A DNA stretch of 64,000 nucleotides, taken from positions 27,066,783-27,130,782 of the forward strand of contig NC_091181.1 of the NCBI RefSeq assembly GCF_040958095.1. Direction: 5' to 3'. The stretch is from Procambarus clarkii. Its lineage: Eukaryota > Arthropoda > Malacostraca > Decapoda > Cambaridae. Made by a program: the position numbers and the translations under genes. A model generated the notes under the pieces. The model searched no databases. It worked only from the letters and a program-made list of their open reading frames with translations, and had not been told where the DNA came from. Shown here in pieces: positions 12,530-61,400 of this stretch (position 1 is the first letter of the stretch; each line of letters begins with the position of its first letter).

Positions 12530-12790
12530 GGAAACAGCTGAGTGGACAGCGTTTCGGATTCGTAGTCCTGAGGTTCCTGGTTCGATCCCCGGTGGAGGGG
12601 GAACCAAATGAGCAGAGTTTCTTTCACCCTGTGACCTAGCAGTAAACAGGTACGTGAGAGTTAGACAGCTGCCTCGGGCTGCTTCGTGGGGATGTGTAAC
12701 AAAACGGAGGCCTGGTCGAGGACCGGGCCGCGGGGACGCTAAGCCCCGAAATCATCTCAAGAAGATGGTTCAGGAACCCCGCAAGCATAT
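12530..12790 (+). repeat. tRNA-derived SINE, family with cctggtcgaggaccgggcc body
   Basis: The head contains an A-box-like stretch (gctgagtggacagcg) and a B box in cctggttcgatccccggtgg. The body has cacctagcagtaaacaggta-type and ggcctggtcgaggaccgggc segments and ends in cgaaatcatctcaagaagat. The same family is at 50016-50275 (plus) and 17394-17648 (minus), with a fragment at 18255-18315. Confidence 0.8.
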
Positions 12791-15990: not shown

Positions 15991-16185
15991 CTTCCCTGGT
16001 GGTGGCATTAATAATGAAATATATATAAATGCCACTGCTCCATGTGCCTCTGTGAGGTGGGCTTTGCCCCGGTAGGCAGAACACTGTAGCTTCAGGGAGC
16101 CACTGGGGCTCACCCAAAAATTGGCGTCTCATTACATTCAATGCTGTTTTTTTTTAAACAGCATTGAATGTAATGAGTCTCCTAA
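15985..16185. repeat. DIRS-like terminus fragment with a foldback hairpin
   Basis: cagggagccactggggctca and the following cattacattcaatgct match the terminal and internal complementary regions of the DIRS-like elements at 50-60 kb. The word cattacattcaatgctgttt is immediately inverted as aaacagcattgaatgtaatg (hairpin about 16131-16176). No recombinase coding is attached, so this looks like a terminal remnant. Confidence 0.6.
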
Positions 16186-16663: not shown

Positions 16664-17770
16664 TAAGTAATTATCAAAAGAAGGCACCAAACTGGGAAGG
16701 CTATGTAGCTATGAGTTAAGCGAGTATAGCCAATACGCAACCTCACCAGAGCCGTTTCCCATCGCCAGTTACGGTGGTAGGAGGATGGGCATGAGAATAC
16801 ACAACTCTTAAGAGTACGCAGTTTGTTACTAGTAACAAAAGATCAACAATCCTGCCAACGGGTAAGGATGGAGGAATGAATAACTGGATAAAAGTCGGAA
16901 TAAGGAATACTTTTACGAGAGATGGGACAAGAGCGGACAGCTTCCCTAATGGCAGCATTCCGCACGCTCATTTAAAAGACACCAATATGGCTGGGAACCC
17001 AGCAAAACTCAACTGACTTAAATTTACTGTGAATAAGAAACAGCCAATGCTGAATCTCGACAACCACTGGATGAACCGGTTTAAAGGACCCGAGAGCCAT
17101 GAGGGCACTACGAGAGTCAACGACAACTACAAAGGGAGATTGACAACGAGAAAGCAGGAGACGAAGAGCATAGAGAATAGCATAAAGTTTCGCTGTGAAA
17201 ATGCTAGTCTACGGAGGTAGGCGATTAATCTTAGTAGCCACATATAAGTTCTGTCAGGAAAAACAACAGAGTAGCCTACACCGTCCGCAGACTTAGACCC
17301 ATCGGTGAAGATGGAAACGGAATGGGAGTGCGAAGAAAAGTGCTCAAGGAAAAGGCATTTCAGAACCGTAGGAGTGGTAAAAGCTTTAGTGATCTTCTTG
17401 AGGTTATCTTGAGATGATTTCGGGGCTTTTTTTAGTGTCCCCGCGGCCCGGTCCTCGACCAGGCCTCCACCCCCAGGAAGCAGCCCGTGACAGCTGACTA
17501 ACACCCAGGTACCTATTTTACTGCTAGGTAACAGGGGCATAGGGTGAAAGAAACTGCCCATTGTTTCTCGCCGGCGCCTGGGATCGAACCCAGGACCACA
17601 GGATCACAAGTCCAGCGTGCTGTCCGCTCGACCGACCGGCTCCCATGTGATGATGTAGGTAAAGTAGGTACAAAACTGCGGGGGCGGGGACTCTCCACGG
17701 GGGCATGGAAGGAACAACACGAGGAGAAAGATTAGAAATACGAACTGAAAGAGAATGTAAGTGACAGAGC
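16664..17770 (-). pseudogene. Old truncated copy of the I-type LINE ORF2
   Basis: Starts with the same 3' tail as the full-length element (taagtaattatcaaaagaag) and then, after a deletion of roughly 260 bp relative to it, follows the RNase H end of ORF2. The minus frame contains FTDGSKSADGVGYSVVFPDR, identical to the intact element. Numerous stops and small indels, and a SINE inserted at 17394-17648, show it is an old dead copy. Homology fades after about 17760. Confidence 0.85.
17394..17648 (-). repeat. tRNA-derived SINE nested in a LINE copy
   Basis: On the minus strand: gagccggtcggtcgagcgga, then a B box within ctgggttcgatcccaggcgc, then ggcctggtcgaggaccgggc, ending cgaaatcatctcaagataac. 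Short duplicated gtgat-like words flank it in the interrupted LINE. Same family as 12530-12790 and 50016-50275; this is the best preserved head of the three. Confidence 0.85.
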
Positions 17771-49359: not shown

Positions 49360-49419
49360 CTAAAACAGACTACGGCAGAGTGGACAGGTCGAGTTGTTGC
49401 TGCTGTTGAACCATTTATA
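49360..49419 (-). CDS. LTN1: LTN1 terminal exon (end of the RING and stop)
   Basis: 60 nt after TCTCTACACAG|: YKWFNSSNNSTCPLCRSLF then TAG (complement of 49360-49362). It supplies the last two zinc ligands (CPLC). Too short to be noticed as an independent reading frame; identified because it completes the RING in phase 0. Confidence 0.94.
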   Translation of the reverse strand, partial: YKWFNSSNNSTCPLCRSLF

Positions 49420-52400
49420 CTGTGTAGAGAGAAAACAGTATTAACATATTTAGCATTAAAAAAAATGGCTTCATAAAAAAGTAAATTAAGAAAGATTGAT
49501 ATCACTTCAATAATAATACTATTCTTTTTTATAAGGTGGTGAGCTATTAAATGAAAACAATAAAAAACTCAATCATAAAATTCTATTTTAATAATTTACT
49601 TTGAAATTACTTTTACTTTTACCTAGTAAAAACCCAGCTTTGAATCTAATAAAATCCTCCTTCCTGGGTGAGCCCTGGTGACTCCTTGAGGCTATGTTGC
49701 CGAGTTAACTTCCCAATGCAATGGTTAACCACATCAGTCATAGGCATCCTGATGGCCTACCTGAGACCAGAGCTAGAACCTGGCTCTGGTCTCTAATTCC
49801 TAATACCTCATCCCCTACTCCCTGTCACAGTGAGCAAGGAATTGTTACAATCACCCTCATGAGGAAAGCATATAAAAAGTAGAAAAACAAACATACAGCT
49901 GCATGATTCATGAAATGAAGCACAGAAACAGCCAACAGACACTGCAAAATAATCACTCAAAACGAAATGATTCACCGAAAGCTGGGTATGAAACGCCCCC
50001 TAGTGTTTAGGAGGCCTGAAGGCTTAGTGGACACTTGGGATTTGTAGTCTTAAGGTTCTGGGTTCAATTCCCGGTGGAGGCGGAAGCAAATGGGCAGTTT
50101 CTTTCAACCCGATGCCTCTGTTCACCTAGCAGTAAATAGGTACCTGGGGAGTTAAGACAGCTATTACAGGCTGCTTCCTGGGGATGTGTAACAAAAAGGA
50201 GGCCTGGTCGAGGACTGAGCTGCGGGGATGCTAAGCCCCGAAATCATCTCAAGATGTCCTCAAGAGGATAGTGTGCAAGTGCATAGCTGCCAGCATCCTG
50301 GCCAATCAGGTATCCTATGCTCAGTCTGTTGCTGATGAGCCATAAACTGGTGCATTTAGTAAAGGGAAGGGGAGTGAGTCAGGGAGCCACGGAGTTCACC
50401 CAAAAAGGGGAGATTCATTACAGTCGATGCTTATTTTCTGGGGGGAGTCCATTGGTTGCTCCCTGAAGCTAACTAACAACAAAAAGGGAAAATGGGATCT
50501 ACCAAGAAGGAAGAGAGGTGGCAGCTTTAAAGCTGAAAAAGAAACACCAGTCTTGGAATCTGGTCCAGGGCAACAGAAGCCTGAATAGGACCAGGTACAC
50601 TGATCAGATACATAGCCACCAAGACCCCTGTTAGATGTCCCAAAACCCAAGCCCAAATATCAGATAAGAAAAAATTAGTGAACACAGTGGTGATGATGTC
50701 CCACTAGAAATCCTAACCAGTCCCAGAACCTTGAACCATGCAGAAGGTAAGACAAGGAATGAACCTGTAAAACCTGAAAGATTGAAAATTTCGATTCTTC
50801 GCGGCGGGGATCGTATTCCAGGGACCTGCCCGAAACGCTAAGCGTACTAGTGGCTGTACAAGAATGTAACAACTCTTGTATATATCTCAAAAAAAAAAAA
50901 AAAAAAAAAGGTAGGTCTGTACAGTAGGTCTGCCAAGTTCAAATTCCACCAGAAACCTTGGGAAAGAATCCAAGAAGCCCATGGATCGTGGGAACAGGAA
51001 CTGGCAAAATGGGTCAGTCAGCATCCCACAGCCCTGCCAAAGGAGTGAACTGCAAAAGGACCTGTGCAAATACCAAGGAGGCCCCAACTCTACTGGACTG
51101 CCTCCAAGTTGAGAAGCCAAAATTCTCTGCTTGGAAGGCAGAGAAGAGAACACCTCAGTGAACTGCAAAAGTACTTGACTGAGGTGTTAGGAAAGAGGTG
51201 GTGTAAAAAGAGGGAGGCAGACAAAAGCATTAAGGATCCGGCTGAATCTAAAGACTGGCCAGCACAGCCAAATGACACATGAGATAAGCCAAGTAAAAAG
51301 CCTGCACCACCTCCTTGGCAGCACCCCCAAAGCCAGAACTGCAGGCAGCAAGGTGGTCATACTGGGGGACAGAAGAAAGAACATGCAAGCCACCATGGTG
51401 ATGATCTGAGAACAGCTCAATGAGCACTCAGATGTACAACATGGTAGCCAAGTGGAAACAAGCCCTGTGATCATAAGTGGTAAGGGCTCCAGTGAACACA
51501 GGCAGCTGCACACGGCGCTGCCACTTGCTCACGTCCTTAGAGAGCACCAGAGCAAACAAGCAGTTCTCAAGTGCCTAAGAACCTCTGAAAGAACGAACTT
51601 GCTTCCTGCCACTCAAGTGCCGAGTTCAGCAGAAGCCCTGCCAAGCTTCCAGGAAAAAGAGGGAAGTGTCAGCAAGCCAGGATGAATCAGGGACCTTTTG
51701 TCTTTCAGCCAAAAAATTGAAGCTAACCCAAACTCGAAAGATGACAGGTGTATTAGGGAAACAAGGTCCTAATCATTCACGAGGAACCAAAAAATGTTCA
51801 CAAGTGCCAATGAAAGTGAAAGGAGGAATGACGAAAACCTCCAGAAAAATTATTCCAAAGAACCGAATGGCACTCAGAAGTGCAGCCGAGTATCAAGCTA
51901 ATAAAAAAAAGGGGGACAGGAGAGATCCTCCTCATTGGAGCAAATGACCTTCATCGGATAGAACTAAAAACCATGTGCGGTTAGAGGGCACTCGGGGACT
52001 CCCCCCCCTTCCTCATGCTTCTCCCAGCCCTGGGGTCCAGCAATGATGGCCTTGGAGTAGCATAGTATTCCATGCCTGATGCCTGTTGGATTGAGAGGCA
52101 CTATCCAACAGAGCAGGATTGGAGCCCAGGCAATTGTTGCAAAGGCTGTGCATCCCCTGTGGAAAAGGATGTCTCATGTGCTTGTCTTTCAGGTGCATGA
52201 AGATGCCCCTGGAGTTAGCTGAGCTACATGCACAGCTAAACCTTGACCTGACTCTGAAATCCTCAGACGTTTTGTAGTCTGAACCAGGAGAAAAGACCAG
52301 ACCCTGAGTGCAAGCCACCAGCAGGGAAAGGAAGATAGCAAACTTAGACCAGGTGGAATTCACCCTCTTCCAAAATTAGATACTTAAGCACCATGGGGCC

Positions 52401-55400
52401 AACTCCGGGCTATCTCCGGGCCGGGAAAAACAGACCATGAAGCAACTACTGCCTGAAAACCCTCCTGTCCCGAGGCAGACTCTGATAAGACTTGATGAGC
52501 ACAACTGTCACAGGACTCGCGGTTGAAGGTTTCATTGACCCAACAGACAGCATGCGGAGACCAAATGATCGTCAGTAAGTAGCAAAGCACTCTTCAAATT
52601 AACATGTAGCAAGAGTGGGCTCGATGAGTTGGTCCACGACGAGCTATGTTATAGCCTGCAGGGGAGTTGCTACGGCCTGAAGGTGACTAACCTTCAGGAC
52701 ACCCAGGCATTAGGGACCGTTTGCCAGAAACACACTGAATGCAGCCTGTAAAAAACTTGGCTACGATGGGCATCCGTGGAGTACTGTATAAACCAAGCAT
52801 ATACACCTTAATACACTCCACAACAAAACAAAAAGCCCCCAACCACAAGATTTTGCAGAGGAGTCAATGACTAATGGATTACCTTGAAAAGGCTGCACCC
52901 CAAGTGGCCTGGCCTCTCAGGGGTGAACTGATGAACACAACAGAGAAGTACTGTAATTCTAACAATGCAAGGGCAATGCTAGACGAGTGTCTAGGGTAAG
53001 ACAGCTGTAAACACATGCAGCTCAAAGTGCAGAAAAAGTTCACTTATGAGTGAGGCTTAAAAACCCCCTCTTGAAGGAAATACCAAAAAAGTAGGAACAA
53101 TATGTTAATAAAAAAATCCCCACACGATGGCCAGCACTCGTCTTGGAGAAGAAGTGGAACTTAGATGACTAAATGGTTAGGGAAGGCAAGGTGTAGAACA
53201 CCTTGCATCAGCAACAGGACTGAACGAGGGAAGCCAGCTTGGCCGAGAAACTGCTGGCTGGCGTGTATGTGCATATATGCAAGAAGGTGTTTTACACCCA
53301 GCTTCGAATGAACCACTCCATTTTGAGTGATTCTTTTGTGGCATGTGTTGGTTGTTTCGGTGCTCCATTTTTCATGAACCTTGAAGTTGTATGCTTTGTC
53401 TCATCTCCTTTCAGGATACTTTCCTGGTGAGGGTGATTTGTAACAATCTCCCTGCTCCCTGTACTTCTTTGATAGTGGCCAGGTTCTGGCTCTGGTTTTC
53501 TTAAGTCAATGGACATTTATGACTGATGTGGCTAAGTATTAGGAAGTTATCTCAGCACCACTGCTTCAGGGAGCCACAAGAGGGCTCCCTTGATAGCACA
53601 TGAGAAATACTGTTAGACTTTATTTTAAGTTAAAACTTTTGTACTATCTGAATAAAGTAATTCAAGGGAGTATCATCACATGCATCTACTAGTACAACCC
53701 TACTCATACTGACGTCCAGTAACACTGATATCTACAGAATGGATGCAGTTTAACTGTATGGACACTAGTGACAAACATTTACTGAATTAATAGGAAAATT
53801 CTTACGAATGACTAAATTCATATAGTAATAACTACATGCACATTTTGAACATACTGAGGACCAACATCTTATAATGAAAACAAAATGTTCATATATTAAA
53901 TAAAAAGTAACAAAATAATAAAATAACATCAGAATAAAACACAGGAAAAATAATATATGTTCTGAAACTATACCTTGTATAAACACTAATTTGTCTCTCA
54001 TTCTTCATATCAGCTAACAAAATGCAATTAAATTTTATTTCCTGTTCTCACTGTGTCAATATTCTCAGTTTGTATCCTTACCAAGCATGCTGAATGGAAC
54101 TTCTTCTTGCAAGTTCGGCAAAGAAGTTTTGGTAGTTGATGATTTGTCCCGTGCAAGACATAGTAACAGATGAAGCATTCCTCAATGCCTTCAAACTTTT
54201 GGTCAACATTTTGTTTCCAAAACACTAATGACTGTAACAAGGGTGTATTGCGATGCGAGAGCATAGTATTCATCTGAAATAATACAATTTTTATTGTGAA
54301 ATATCTTTACTTGATTAATGTAAGATTTTGTTAGGCAACTACAAAGGTAAGGAATGGTAATTACCAGGAAAAAGTTCTAAGCCATTACAACTATATAGTA
54401 CTTGGAAGGGATGAGGATAAGGATTTGGGATTGGACTGAGGGAGGGAATGGTCCCCAACCATTTGGATTGTTAGGTTAGGGGTAAAATTATATAAAATGA
54501 TGAGGGAATAAACATTCCCTTGAGTGCAAACTTTCCAGAAATTAAACATGTTAGCACTATTTTAGGTACCAGGCACAGATTTGTATTTTATCTGCTCTGC
54601 TAAATAACTGCTAGAAACATTGATAAATTATGTGGGGGGTAGCTTATCACTCCTGCACAACTATGGGGCAGTAAACAGGTCTCTGGGAGTTATTGTTGCA
54701 TTCTAGGGTAGGTCTATCATTGGGTAGGAAGATCTCAATAAGCCTAATAGGCTTCCCTTCTCTGGTTAGAGGAGCCTTATTACAGAAATTAAAAAACCCA
54801 GCGTTTAATGTAATGAAACGCCATTTTCTGGGCGAGCCCTGGAGGCTCTCTTGAGCTATCGGGCTAATATGTGATACATTAGACTGGGACATTAGTCTAT
54901 GGAGTTCAGCCTACTGGGGACCACAAGCCAGAACCTGGCCCCCTCAGAAAAGTGTAAGGAGCAATGGCCCTGGAAAACCCCCTTGTGGTTGGGGTTTTTC
55001 CTTATCTGCCATTGACCGGGGTTAGGCACCCAGAAAGGTAGGCATAACAAAACAAACCCCACATGGTAAGAACATTACAACTAAAAACTGAAAAGAGAGG
55101 CAGACCTCCCTCCAATCCCAAGGAAACGAGCAAAAGTCACATTCCATTGCCGCGTTGCTCGTCCGTGCAGCCTTCCCCTTCCCAAGAGTGGGAGTGGAAG
55201 AGGAAGCCCCGGACGTCCCCGAGCCAGTTACCTAGCACTCCAGTTTGGAAGCTCAGCATCAATCAAAGCGAAAAAAACGCCGATCGGAGGGAGGGAGGGT
55301 TGCCAGGGAGCCTCCGGGGCTCATCCAGAAAATGGTGTTTCATTACATTTAACACTGGTTTTCTGTGGGGAGCCCCTACGGCTCCCTGGAGTTACATAAC

Positions 55401-58400
55401 CAAAGATAATGAAAAGAGGGACTTGCCCGGGAGACGGCCGCCACACACTCAACACGAAGTTGAGAGAACTGGCTGTAACCTGCGACCCAAAGCAACACAG
55501 GAATGGCCAGGAGCAGGAACTTTAACCACATATCGGGCGGCCAGGACCCTGCCGACCTCCAAAATCCCTGTGCCCGAATATCAGCCCAGGAAATATTGCC
55601 AGACACAACAGCCAACACAGCAAACATTGGAACAGGGAACGAGGAAACCGGATCAACCTAAAGCGAATCCCTAGCCATCGAAGCCAAAATGCTCAAATAA
55701 CAGCGAAATGCCGAAATCGGACACAACACATGATGCATCCCCGGCCTGACCAACCAAGCATTAATGACTGAAGGACCCGTCCAGAAAGCAGCTGTCTCAT
55801 TTTCATCAGGAAAGGAGGAGAAGGCTGCAACCGAACAAACCGACCACCAGGACCGAAAGAGCAGAAACTCCTGTGCTGGAGGAGACCATGAAGCTCACCG
55901 ACCCAACCCCCAGAGGCAATGCCAACAGAAACAGAGCCTTGGAAAAACAATCTTGAACCGAAGGGGCCACCACAAACCGAGGAGAGGAAAGATAGGAGAG
56001 CACCCTGTCCAAGGACCAGTACAGCTCAGGTTGCACAGAGCAGGCATCAGTTTCGTTACGTTCTCTAGATAGCCGATGATTGACCGACTTTGGTGAAACA
56101 AAGCACGAGGAAGCTTACAGAACGGGGCAGAAGTGACATCCACCCAGAATGCAAGCTAGAGTGGCTCTGCCAGCACTGCACGATACAGGGTGACAGAATT
56201 AGGCATCAAATGACGGTCCTGAAAAAGCTAAGACAGAAAGGGCAAGACAACCCGATCAGAAATAGAACACAACCTACGAAGACAGAGAAAATGGCGGAAA
56301 GAATGCCAGTAAACTTCATACTGTCACTGAGACGAAGCTCTCAGGTGGGACACCATGAACGAAGCCACCTGATCGCCATACAAATGGTGATAAACCCGCG
56401 TAAAAAAGACAAGACGCAAAGAGTGGAGAAGACTGAACCAGCCATGTATTGGGTTGGTCCGACCTGCTGGAAGAGGCTGAGCCGCAGAAAATGGCCACCA
56501 GTCCTCGTGGCCACCAAGGGGTCATGAGGACTACTCTCCCTTGGTAGGACTCCAACCGAGCTAGAACCCAAAGCAACAGCTGGACTAGGGGAAAGAGGTA
56601 CAGTACAGATAATCCCACCTTGACCAACCTGGCCGAAAGGCATCCACTGTGACAGCCTCGCAGTCTAGGAAGGGTGCCACATACATCGGGAAATGCCGAG
56701 ACCAAGCCAACGTGAACAGGTACACGTCCGGGAGTTCGTACATCTGGCAGAGCCAACGGAAAGAGTTTGCGTCAACTTTCCATTCCGTGGACAGGGGATG
56801 AACCGAGATAGGCTGTCCGCCTGGAATTCGAGGCCAGAGAAGATGTCCACCCCTGACCACATTAGTGAATGAACTGAAATGCTAGGTAGCCAGTGTGGGG
56901 AGGGGAGGGCTGCGCGGACGAGCGACGTGGTGGTGGAGTGTGACGTTTCCTCGTTTCCTTGGGACCAGAGGGAGTCTCTGCTTCAATTTTTGGTTTTTAG
57001 TTGTAATTTTCTTACCATGTGGGGTTTGTTTTGTTATGCTTACCTTTCTGGATGCCTAACCCCGGTCAGGGTTAGGCCCGACTGGGGCATAACCCCTAAC
57101 CGACTGGGGCCTAACAGTCTCCAGTCCCGGGAGACTATGGAGTTGCGCTATGGTTGTCAAAGCCCCTAATGCCTAGGTCTAATGTATCACATATTAGCAC
57201 AATAGCTCCAGGGAGCCATAGTGGCTCCCCACAGAAAAAGTTACTAATACATCTGGTAGGCAACTGCCTCTGAACATATGCAATGAATGGGAACCACACA
57301 GAAAGGAGAGAACACAGGTGGGGTGGAAATGAATCCAGGAACTCTCCAGCCTAGCATCAAGAACATGGAAAATGAGCATGACGTTGATTACTCGGTACAT
57401 GTTATGCATCAAAGGCGAGCAAGTCACCTGAGCACGAAATTTGAATGCAAAGAAGTTGGTACTTTAGGCAAGCTCGATGGGGATGCACTGAGCACCAAAA
57501 ACACAGCAGCCCAGGGTGAAGCAGGTTTGGTGCCGACGTGCTCTATGGAAACACACCAGGCATCACAACATGTAATGTAAGAGTTCAGTCAGTTCAGAAC
57601 ACATTCAGGTTCAATGGGGTGTACCTAACACCCAATGCAAGGAAATCATTTGGGAAGCATTACCAATTCAGTACATGGAACATGTTGTTATAAGTCCATG
57701 TATCAGCTACACATGACAAGCAAATTGTCCCTGAACTGTTCTAATAATAGTATACAGTATGTACAGCTGAATCAAGTACTAACTGTTCGGGACCTCGATA
57801 TAAGCTTAACGTGTGTATAAAAATACACTGGCTGCCTGTCACCTGATACAATGAATTATTATTATTATCATCAAACCAAGATATCCCAACCAGGGATAGC
57901 TAAGTCACCACAACCACTTCAGTGGTTGTAGTGACCTAGTGACACTTCAGTTTAAAAGATTTAAAATGGATGATCTATTTTATAAGTTTTTGTTTGTCAA
58001 TACCCATTTATATTCCTGTTTTTTGGTCTAATCCTCATGAATGCTAATCTTCTCATCAAAATTGACAATATCTTGTACTGTATAAACAAGTGAAAAGCAT
58101 CATTATACTGTACGGTAATGTATATGCAATTTATTGTGCTACAATTTTGAACAATTTTGCTGCCTGATATTTTATCTTTTAGATAAGAAATGAGAATAAA
58201 ATCCAACTTACTACAAGCAGCCAATTTCGCCATTGGGCAACAGAGACCCCAACCCTACGATGGTCATCAACAGTGACTGTAGTGAGTGGGTGATTTGGAG
58301 CCAGACGAAGAATTAACTCCATACTGGTTTCGTCTATGGAATAGGTGGCCACCACTTCTCTAGCTCCTGGACGAGCCTTCACCTGTAAGAAAGCGCAGAT

Positions 58401-61400
58401 ACATATAAATGTACATTTATAAAATTGTGCTGTTGCAGTTAATCTTATATTTTGCAATACAAAGTACAGTACTGTATTTTTAACTGCCTCAAATTGCAAT
58501 TGACTAACAAAAAAATTACAGCAACGCTAACAGTGCAGAGTTCTTACCGTCATGTTATCAAACTTTGTAGAAGAGTTGGTAATTGCAGACATTTCTTGAT
58601 TAATTAGCAGTGGGGAGACATACAAAGTGGTAAAGCCATCAACTATAGGTTGATAGTGTCGGTCCAGGCTTATAAACCACTGTCTGACTGCAGCAGGGAT
58701 GCGGCTAACACACTCATAATATGCCTTGCATGCTAGCTGAGCTACCAGCTGTGATGTAGCATTTGCTGAAAATATAGATAAATTGGAAACAGAAATAAAT
58801 TTATTATTGTATAATACGAAACTGTGTTCTACTTCTTTGGTATGAATGAGGAAGCAAAATTTGTACAAATATGTAAAGCAACTCGAAGGATAATAAATCT
58901 TGTGCAGTGTATTATAGGCAAAAAACCAGCTTTGAATGTAATGAAATGCCATTTTCTGGGAGAGACCTGGAGGCTCCCCTGAGCTATTCAGGCTGATATG
59001 AATATATTAGACCCTGGTATCAGTCAAGTGTATGGAGTTCTAGGCCTACCAGGGACCACAAGCCAGAACCTGGCCCCCTCTCAGAGAGGCACGAGGAGCA
59101 ATGGCTTATAGAAACCCCCCGTGTGGTTGGGAGCATTCTATGTCTGCCAGCGACTGGGTAAGGTGCCCAGAAAGGTAGATGCCCCAAAACAAACCCCTAT
59201 TCTGGTAAAATATTGCTACTGAAAGCCTAACTAGTGGACAGAACTCCCCAAATGAAAACGAGCTAATGAGCATGACGTCACCACGTTACCGCGCCGTCGT
59301 CTGTGCAACCCGCCCACCCCAGGAGGAAGGGAAGCCCCAGACCTTCACACTCGCTATCCAACCTGCAGCTCTGAGGCTGAATGTCAATATTCGTGAAAAG
59401 AAAAACCGCCGACTGGAGGGGGAGGGTTGCCATGGAGCCTCCGGGTCTCACCCAGAAAATGGCGTTTCATTACATTCAATGCTAGTTTTCTGGGGGGGAG
59501 CCCCTTTGGCTCCCTAGAGCTACTTATCCAAAGACAAAATCAAGAGGGACTTACCCGGAGCCGGTCAGCCCTCGCTCCTCAACGTGAAGTTGAGACAACT
59601 AGATGCAACTGCCGACCCAAAGCGACACAGGCCAGACTAGGCCCAGGAATATTGACAAGGTAGTGAGTTGCCAGGACCCTGTTCGATCTCCAAAAACCCC
59701 ATGCCCGAATGTTAGCCCAAAAGATGTTACTGAAGACGGCAGCCAATGCAGCAAACTTACGAACATCGTGGGCACAAGGATAGACCGCAGGCTGGCTAGA
59801 CCGAAGAACCCTGTCGACGATCTGGAAGACCAGAACCCTAGAACAGGGAAGAAGGGAAACCAAATCAACCCAATGCACATCCCCGGCCACCGAAGCCTTG
59901 GCGGGCAGGTAATAGTGGAAAACCGCAACCGGACACAACACATGATGCATCCCCGGCATGACCAACCAAGCATCAACAACCCAAGGACCCCTCCGGAAAG
60001 CAGCAGTCTCATTCTTTGCCAAAAAAGAAGGAGACGGCTGCAAACAAACAAATCTACCACCAGGACTAAAAGACCCGTGCACCAGAGGAGAGCATGAAGC
60101 TCCTTGACACGACCTCCAGAGGCTAATGCCAACAAGAAAAGAGCTTTCACCAAACAATGCTGAACCAAAGGGGCCACAACAGAGAAGAGAGAAAAGAGAG
60201 CACCCGGTCCAACGACCAGGACGGATCAGCAGAGCATGAGCAGGCTGGAGATGAAACAATGCACAAGACAGTCTGCGGAAAAATGCAGAAGTGAAAACCC
60301 CTGGGGGTGGGGTTTTCACTTCCAGAACCTACTGGGGCGGGGTTTTCGCCCCAGTAGGTTCTGGGGTGCCTACCTTTCTGGGTGCCTAACCTGGTCGATG
60401 GCAGACACAGAATGCTCCCAACCACACGGAGGGTTTCTATAGGCCATTGCTCCTCGTGCCTCTCTGAGGGGGGCCAGGTTCTGTCTCATGGGTCCCCGGT
60501 AGGCCTAAAACTCCATGCTTTTGACTGATACCAGGGTCTAATACATTCATATCAGCCTGGATAGCTCCGGGGAGCTGAAAGGGCTTCCCCAGAAAAGAAC
60601 TTATCATGTTTATTTGAAGCCCGATTTCTGAACTATCCCAATCAGATGATCCCTAAGGCAAGAGTGGATCATATGTGGTAAAGGAAGAATAAAAGAAAAT
60701 GTGTACATGTCACCTGTTCTGCACAGTTCAATACATTTGTAATTCTTGAATCTATTATATAATTTATTAGTGAAATGTTACAATCTATAACATACCAAGA
60801 GGGCTGATATAAAGCTGAGTGTTGAATATTGTTAACAATGATTTGTCATCTCCAGTTTGCTCTAGCTTGGTCCCTTCATTAACCAGAGGAGTTTGAGGCA
60901 TCAACTTGAAGAGATTTAGCAGAAGTCTTTGGAGCAAATTCGTTTGCCTATAAAAAATATAAGAATATATTCACCATAAATAATAATGATAACACAGAAA
61001 TACAAAGTATAACCTAATGCATGATGACAGGAATGGGCTATGATAAAAACAGTACAGCGTGTCTTAGAAGCAACATGTTACATGTGAGCTGTTTAGACGA
61101 CTCTTGGGAGGCCCTGATTAATCATAATCTATTTTCACATGATAATTGTGCCCCATTTATATTTATTATCCACTAAGTTTACACCCTTTTCAAATATTCT
61201 TACTTCTCATGACCAGTTCTGTATAGTAAGTATAATACAATGAATGAACATATCTTTACTAATGCCATGTAAATTTAAAAATAATTTTCACATGGCTTTT
61301 CTATTAAATGTCTCAATGGAAAATTCAGGTTCCTGGTCCACACAGCCTGTTCCATCATGCAATTCACTTTGTTCATTATATATATTTTTCAATAATTTTG

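Follow-up and report, generated by a model that had tools for sequence, protein, structure and literature searches.

Three sense-oriented DIRS1-like relics in neighbouring introns of the LTN1 gene of Procambarus clarkii

Three introns of the LTN1 (listerin) gene of Procambarus clarkii each carry a DIRS-like retroelement, and the coding strand of all three elements is that of the gene (minus). They lie in a window of 64,000 nucleotides, the whole stretch of DNA that was analysed. Element C (about 3.96 kb, 49628..~53590, minus strand, 5' border worn) occupies the last LTN1 intron, element A (2.45 kb, 54792..57238, minus strand) the penultimate one and element B (1.68 kb, 58919..60596, minus strand) the next element-bearing intron upstream of that of A. 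The initial annotation had proposed this arrangement, and it is confirmed by the LTN1 exons, the protein remnants, the element ends and an internal complementary region (ICR). In all likelihood C, A and B go back to independent insertions from different lineages of one DIRS1-like family, are old and internally deleted, and share their orientation by chance.

The minus-strand location of LTN1 follows from matches to listerin (3j92_w) and to Pfam. Three open reading frames correspond to consecutive parts of 3j92_w: 58527-59006 to residues 1548-1627, 58179-58526 to residues 1624-1686 and 54028-54306 to residues 1680-1751. From the listerin matches and splice sites we placed minus-strand exons at 58548..58765, 58212..58382 (also matched by Pfam) and 54082..54273. 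A putative last exon on the same strand (49360..49419), assigned by motif and splice sites, reads YKWFNSSNNSTCPLCRSLF and is followed by a stop. Upstream, LTN1_E3_ligase_6th identifies an exon at about 61.7-61.96 kb (E 8.9e-7), and good splice sites mark a probable exon at about 60.95-60.8 kb, where Pfam gave no match. The intron of B runs from 58765 to this probable exon ending near 60.8 kb; the small intron 58547-58383 is free of elements. The elements make up most of the length of their three introns, which without them would measure approximately 0.7 kb (C), 1.5 kb (A) and 0.35 kb (B).

The gene was followed into 20 kb of upstream sequence (loci L065 and L066, coordinates continued past the window), of which about 5.5 kb reads N. 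An exon at 71.0-71.5 kb (L065) corresponds to listerin residues 1271-1328. No match to listerin was obtained for the open reading frames at 77.0-77.2, 74.5-74.9 and 73.4-73.7 kb. When frames of L066 were read through stops, none of three matched a Pfam family and neither of the two tried against the PDB matched listerin. A profile search for the 5' end of the gene gave no Ltn1_1st match, and its controls were silent as well.

C, A and B each display DIRS1-like anatomy, namely inverted ends together with an ICR. Read along the coding strand, A and B begin with TTTTCTG (the start of C is worn), and all three finish with GCTGG and a T run. Inverted terminal repeats are present in the three elements and in four related copies. 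The 3' inverted repeat of A (54824..55184) pairs in two pieces with 56896-57238 (86% over 173 and 79% over 73 bases), that of B (58952..59190) with 60358-60596 (86% over 240 bases) and that of C (49670..49997), again in two pieces, with 53286-53587 (76% over 177 and 71% over 117 bases). The ICR lies near the 3' end of C, A, B and the related copy L045 and corresponds to the 3' and 5' ends, joined over the T run, in reverse complement; it spans 55305..55394 in A, 59434..59522 in B and approximately 50380..50445 in C. Alignment thus found ends and ICR common to all three elements, so that an objection from unshared termini, foreseen in the initial annotation, does not apply. The ends are inverted and accompanied by an ICR, in place of the split direct repeats of PAT-like or Ngaro-like elements. 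Inspection of the flanks by eye revealed no target-site duplication at A or B, the 5' border of C being too worn to judge, and the flanks of the three elements all differ from one another.

A high-copy repeat of about 255 bp is nested inside C (50009..50265, plus strand by arbitrary choice), with 85-89% identical copies on many contigs. It recurs in the window at 12537-12762 and 17392-17613.

The reading frames of C, A and B are broken, and each element retains a different part of the coding region. A has lost gag, RT and RNase H but keeps both ends, the tyrosine recombinase (YR) and the tail of pol that follows RNase H. B keeps both ends and the catalytic (second) half of YR. In C a gag-like part (roughly residues 48-504) and the beginning of pol survive, along with a vestige of the end of YR. 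RT is missing from all three through deletion. In comparisons with the proteins of L045, A matched with E 1.4e-100 (48% over 349 amino acids in linked pieces), B with E 6e-76 (62% over 244 amino acids) and the gag part of C with E 5e-19 (31% over 275 amino acids). Reversed and block-shuffled controls for this comparison gave no match at E 0.05, and in the profile searches for DIRS remnants reversed controls reached at most 3.9 bits.

The genome contains many sequences related to these elements. With B and A as queries, 18,016 and 17,160 first-look candidates were obtained, which are word matches unconfirmed as copies and of which 40 each were scored. For C, 40 of 8,151 candidates were scored, and most matches were to the nested repeat. 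Among the matches listed, only the copies in LTN1 cover the whole of A, B or C. Nine family loci were compared (L039-L043 and L045-L048; L044, the repeat of LTN1 described below, was left out). Identity to L045 is 98.7-99.6% for six of the nine and 80-81% for L042 and L043. The L045 copy, taken with L058, is about 6.4 kb long and comprises a first open reading frame, a frame with RT and a YR frame that overlaps it. The same genome has related copies with RT and open frames that reach about 6.4 kb.

The domain content of the family was read from these longer copies. RT of L045 is recognized clearly (PF00078, E 1.8e-17, 64.2 bits against a cut-off of 29.6), and RNase H gives a match below the cut-off (PF17917, E 0.0057, 17.2 bits against 24.8). 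The pol region following RNase H, present in L045 and shared by A, is a candidate for the methyltransferase-like (MT) domain of DIRS elements and has no Pfam or NCBIfam match. The first open reading frame of L045, part of which is shared by C, has no Pfam match and is called gag by its position. For YR, PF13495 matched two of four copies with E 0.00094 and 20.0 bits, under the 27-bit cut-off, and did not match the other two; the YR region gave no NCBIfam and no PDB match. R, HxxR and Y motifs are visible by eye in the YR region of L045, and we assume that they represent the tyrosine-recombinase motif. Position, motif order and the sub-threshold Pfam match in two of four copies weakly support the identity of this region as YR. 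Of the profile relationship on which the initial annotation relied, the RT part is therefore clear, while the recombinase part is seen weakly through PF13495 below cut-off, and PF00589 has no match at the family loci.

A search of the genome with PF00589 yielded 66 matches, none of them at the nine family loci. These places (e.g. L001-L008) hold what looks like a separate recombinase family, many members of which have open frames of about 335 codons. In blastn against eight of the loci, A and B found nothing and C gave four short pieces. A tblastn search of the window with their open reading frames (the right frame from four of the eight loci) found nothing, and a comparison of profiles, both shallow, showed no link to the family described here. 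The PF00589-type recombinases look like a different family from that of A, B and C. Among the other profile matches in this genome, arthropod hemocyanin domains account for 31, clustered on contigs C16, C52, C74, C78 and C89. Mollusc hemocyanin had no match, in a search whose controls were also silent.

The anatomy is close to that of DIRS1-like elements as far as these are described in the relevant part of PMC3266345. Common features are the inverted ends, an ICR close to the 3' end that matches the joined ends in reverse complement, a short T-rich junction, the lack of a target-site duplication (here at A and B) and an RT/RNase H frame with a long overlap by the YR frame. Sizes among the rows listed there are 5.2-6.2 kb, compared with about 6.4 kb for the related copy in P. 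clarkii. In contrast to those elements, A, B and C are deleted relics, and MT and YR of the family fall short of a profile match at curated level. DIRS1-like elements of Decapoda belong to the same superfamily, a likeness drawn from their description only in the sections concerned (PMC2685390, PMC10454600). According to the passage on repeats in PMC10454600, DIRS elements form less than 1% of repeats in almost all decapods and 8.84% in M. nipponense. Mammalian TMPO and ZNF451, in the portion of PMC4495291 that treats them, also contain DIRS1-like sequence within a host gene; there gag became an exon, whereas the frames of the LTN1 elements are broken. The DIRS-rich caecilian genome, as summarized in PMC8498967, is likewise large and has many DIRS copies, but in a vertebrate host.

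Based on these features and on the mechanism outlined in PMC3266345, as far as that outline extends, we propose the following origin for the three elements. RNA of a DIRS element would have been copied into DNA, and the ICR would then have assisted the closure of this DNA copy into a circle. The circle would have been inserted by the tyrosine recombinase at a short match, without a target-site duplication. Internal deletions and decay would finally have yielded the present relics. The features of this mechanism seen directly are the ends, the ICR, the missing duplications at A and B, the coding remnants and the kinship of the elements.

The DIRS cluster in LTN1 is real. In 80.3 kb that was not picked for DIRS content (window positions 1-49300 and 11 loci) a single DIRS fragment of 67 bases was found, whereas five of the nine loci around family copies contain a further DIRS segment and L043 an adjacent piece, the other three having none; both samples are small, and the nine loci were chosen by their DIRS content. 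The lone 67-base piece, a DIRS terminus at 16087-16153, is next to a short duplicate of its end in inverted orientation. Where DIRS sequence is otherwise scarce, three adjacent sense copies form a cluster that chance need not explain, which counts against chance as the reading. The recombinase or the circle might favour short introns or sites near splice acceptors. The low density in the 80.3 kb and the three insertions into introns of the otherwise modest lengths given above speak for such a preference, and the 3' ends of the elements lie 209 (C), 519 (A) and 154 bp (B) from the next exon. Against it, other DIRS segments also lie close to family copies in the five of nine loci, where no gene is known, and we regard an insertion preference as very unlikely.

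The common orientation carries little statistical weight: three of three in one direction corresponds to p 0.25 (two-sided) or 0.125 (one-sided). Further DIRS relics lie upstream of the elements across 75560-83071 (L065/L066). One of them, a weak YR relic at 75965-76420 about 15 kb upstream, is antisense (profile E 1.3e-11, tblastn 4e-6); this match vanishes under low-complexity masking. A DIRS 3' end at 77823-78112 (E 6e-52) is in sense. At 82061-82663, fragments of RNase H and of the pol tail lie colinearly in sense; they are weak (profile E between 0.001 and 0.1 for each, 2e-6 in linked tblastn) and do not appear in the low-complexity-masked search. A terminus-like piece at 83004-83071 points in the opposite direction and was excluded from the orientation count. 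Judging from the exon at 71.0-71.5 kb, the relics at 75-84 kb are probably inside LTN1. If they are counted as such, five sense copies stand against one antisense copy (p 0.22).

A bias in orientation is thus unsupported at the present sample size (3/3, or 5/6 with the relics). That selection removes antisense intronic copies, or that sense copies are better tolerated, agrees with both counts; yet the p values are 0.25 and 0.22, one upstream relic is antisense, and the intronic bias described for other retroelements, in the passages of PMC3517506 and PMC1794541 that deal with it, is towards antisense. We consider such selection highly improbable. A literature search of narrow scope found no paper on sense versus antisense orientation of DIRS elements in introns. 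There is a comparably slim chance that intronic DIRS1-like copies survive preferably in sense, the ICR and inverted ends making an antisense copy more harmful to the host transcript; if true, this would be the reverse of the antisense bias described for other retroelements. Neither selection against antisense copies nor an insertion preference, both raised in the initial annotation, is needed to account for the arrangement.

The kinship of the elements points to separate events. A and B are 72% identical over 870 and 75% over 403 aligned bases. Among the 40 scored of 17,160 candidates, the last 0.84 kb of A is 80-85% identical to copies elsewhere compared with 72% to B, and its interior 0.4 kb up to 80% compared with 75%. 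For B, copies elsewhere reach 81-82% over 1.2-1.4 kb (40 of 18,016 candidates scored), and the best match of C is 69% over 0.9 kb (40 of 8,151 scored). The repeat arms, 71-76% identical in C, 79-86% in A and B and 98.1-98.6% in four related copies, support a greater age of C, provided that the arms of the older lineages started out equally alike; the suggested order, C diverged and A and B similar, is borne out. With A and B nearer to outside copies than to each other and C older, the three are most likely independent insertions and not products of local amplification. That one insertion spawned the others inside LTN1 through circle recombination or duplication is barely credible: nearness and equal orientation are all that favour it, while, segment for segment, A and B resemble each other less than either resembles copies on other contigs, the repeat arms make C the older element and the flanks differ.

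On a larger scale, a segment of no less than 37 kb, which carries the 3' part of LTN1 as well as C, A and B, is repeated 97.5 kb further on (contig C32) in the same orientation. The repeat starts between about 22.7 and 26.7 kb and extends at least to the window end (64000). Of nine 1-kb probes, six matched at 99.4-100% identity and three had no match; over 9.3 kb the identity is 99.87%. The repeat may reflect either a genuine duplication of recent date or a haplotype left unmerged.

C, A and B are ordinary relics of the known DIRS1-like kind, in a family that also has young copies. One gene cannot decide on a bias of orientation or insertion; with young copies and graded relics side by side, this genome suits a proper test. 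P. clarkii offers a DIRS family in which nearly identical copies with open frames occur together with relics of graded age in one big arthropod genome, and the LTN1 elements are a tidy example of DIRS1-like decay in such a genome.
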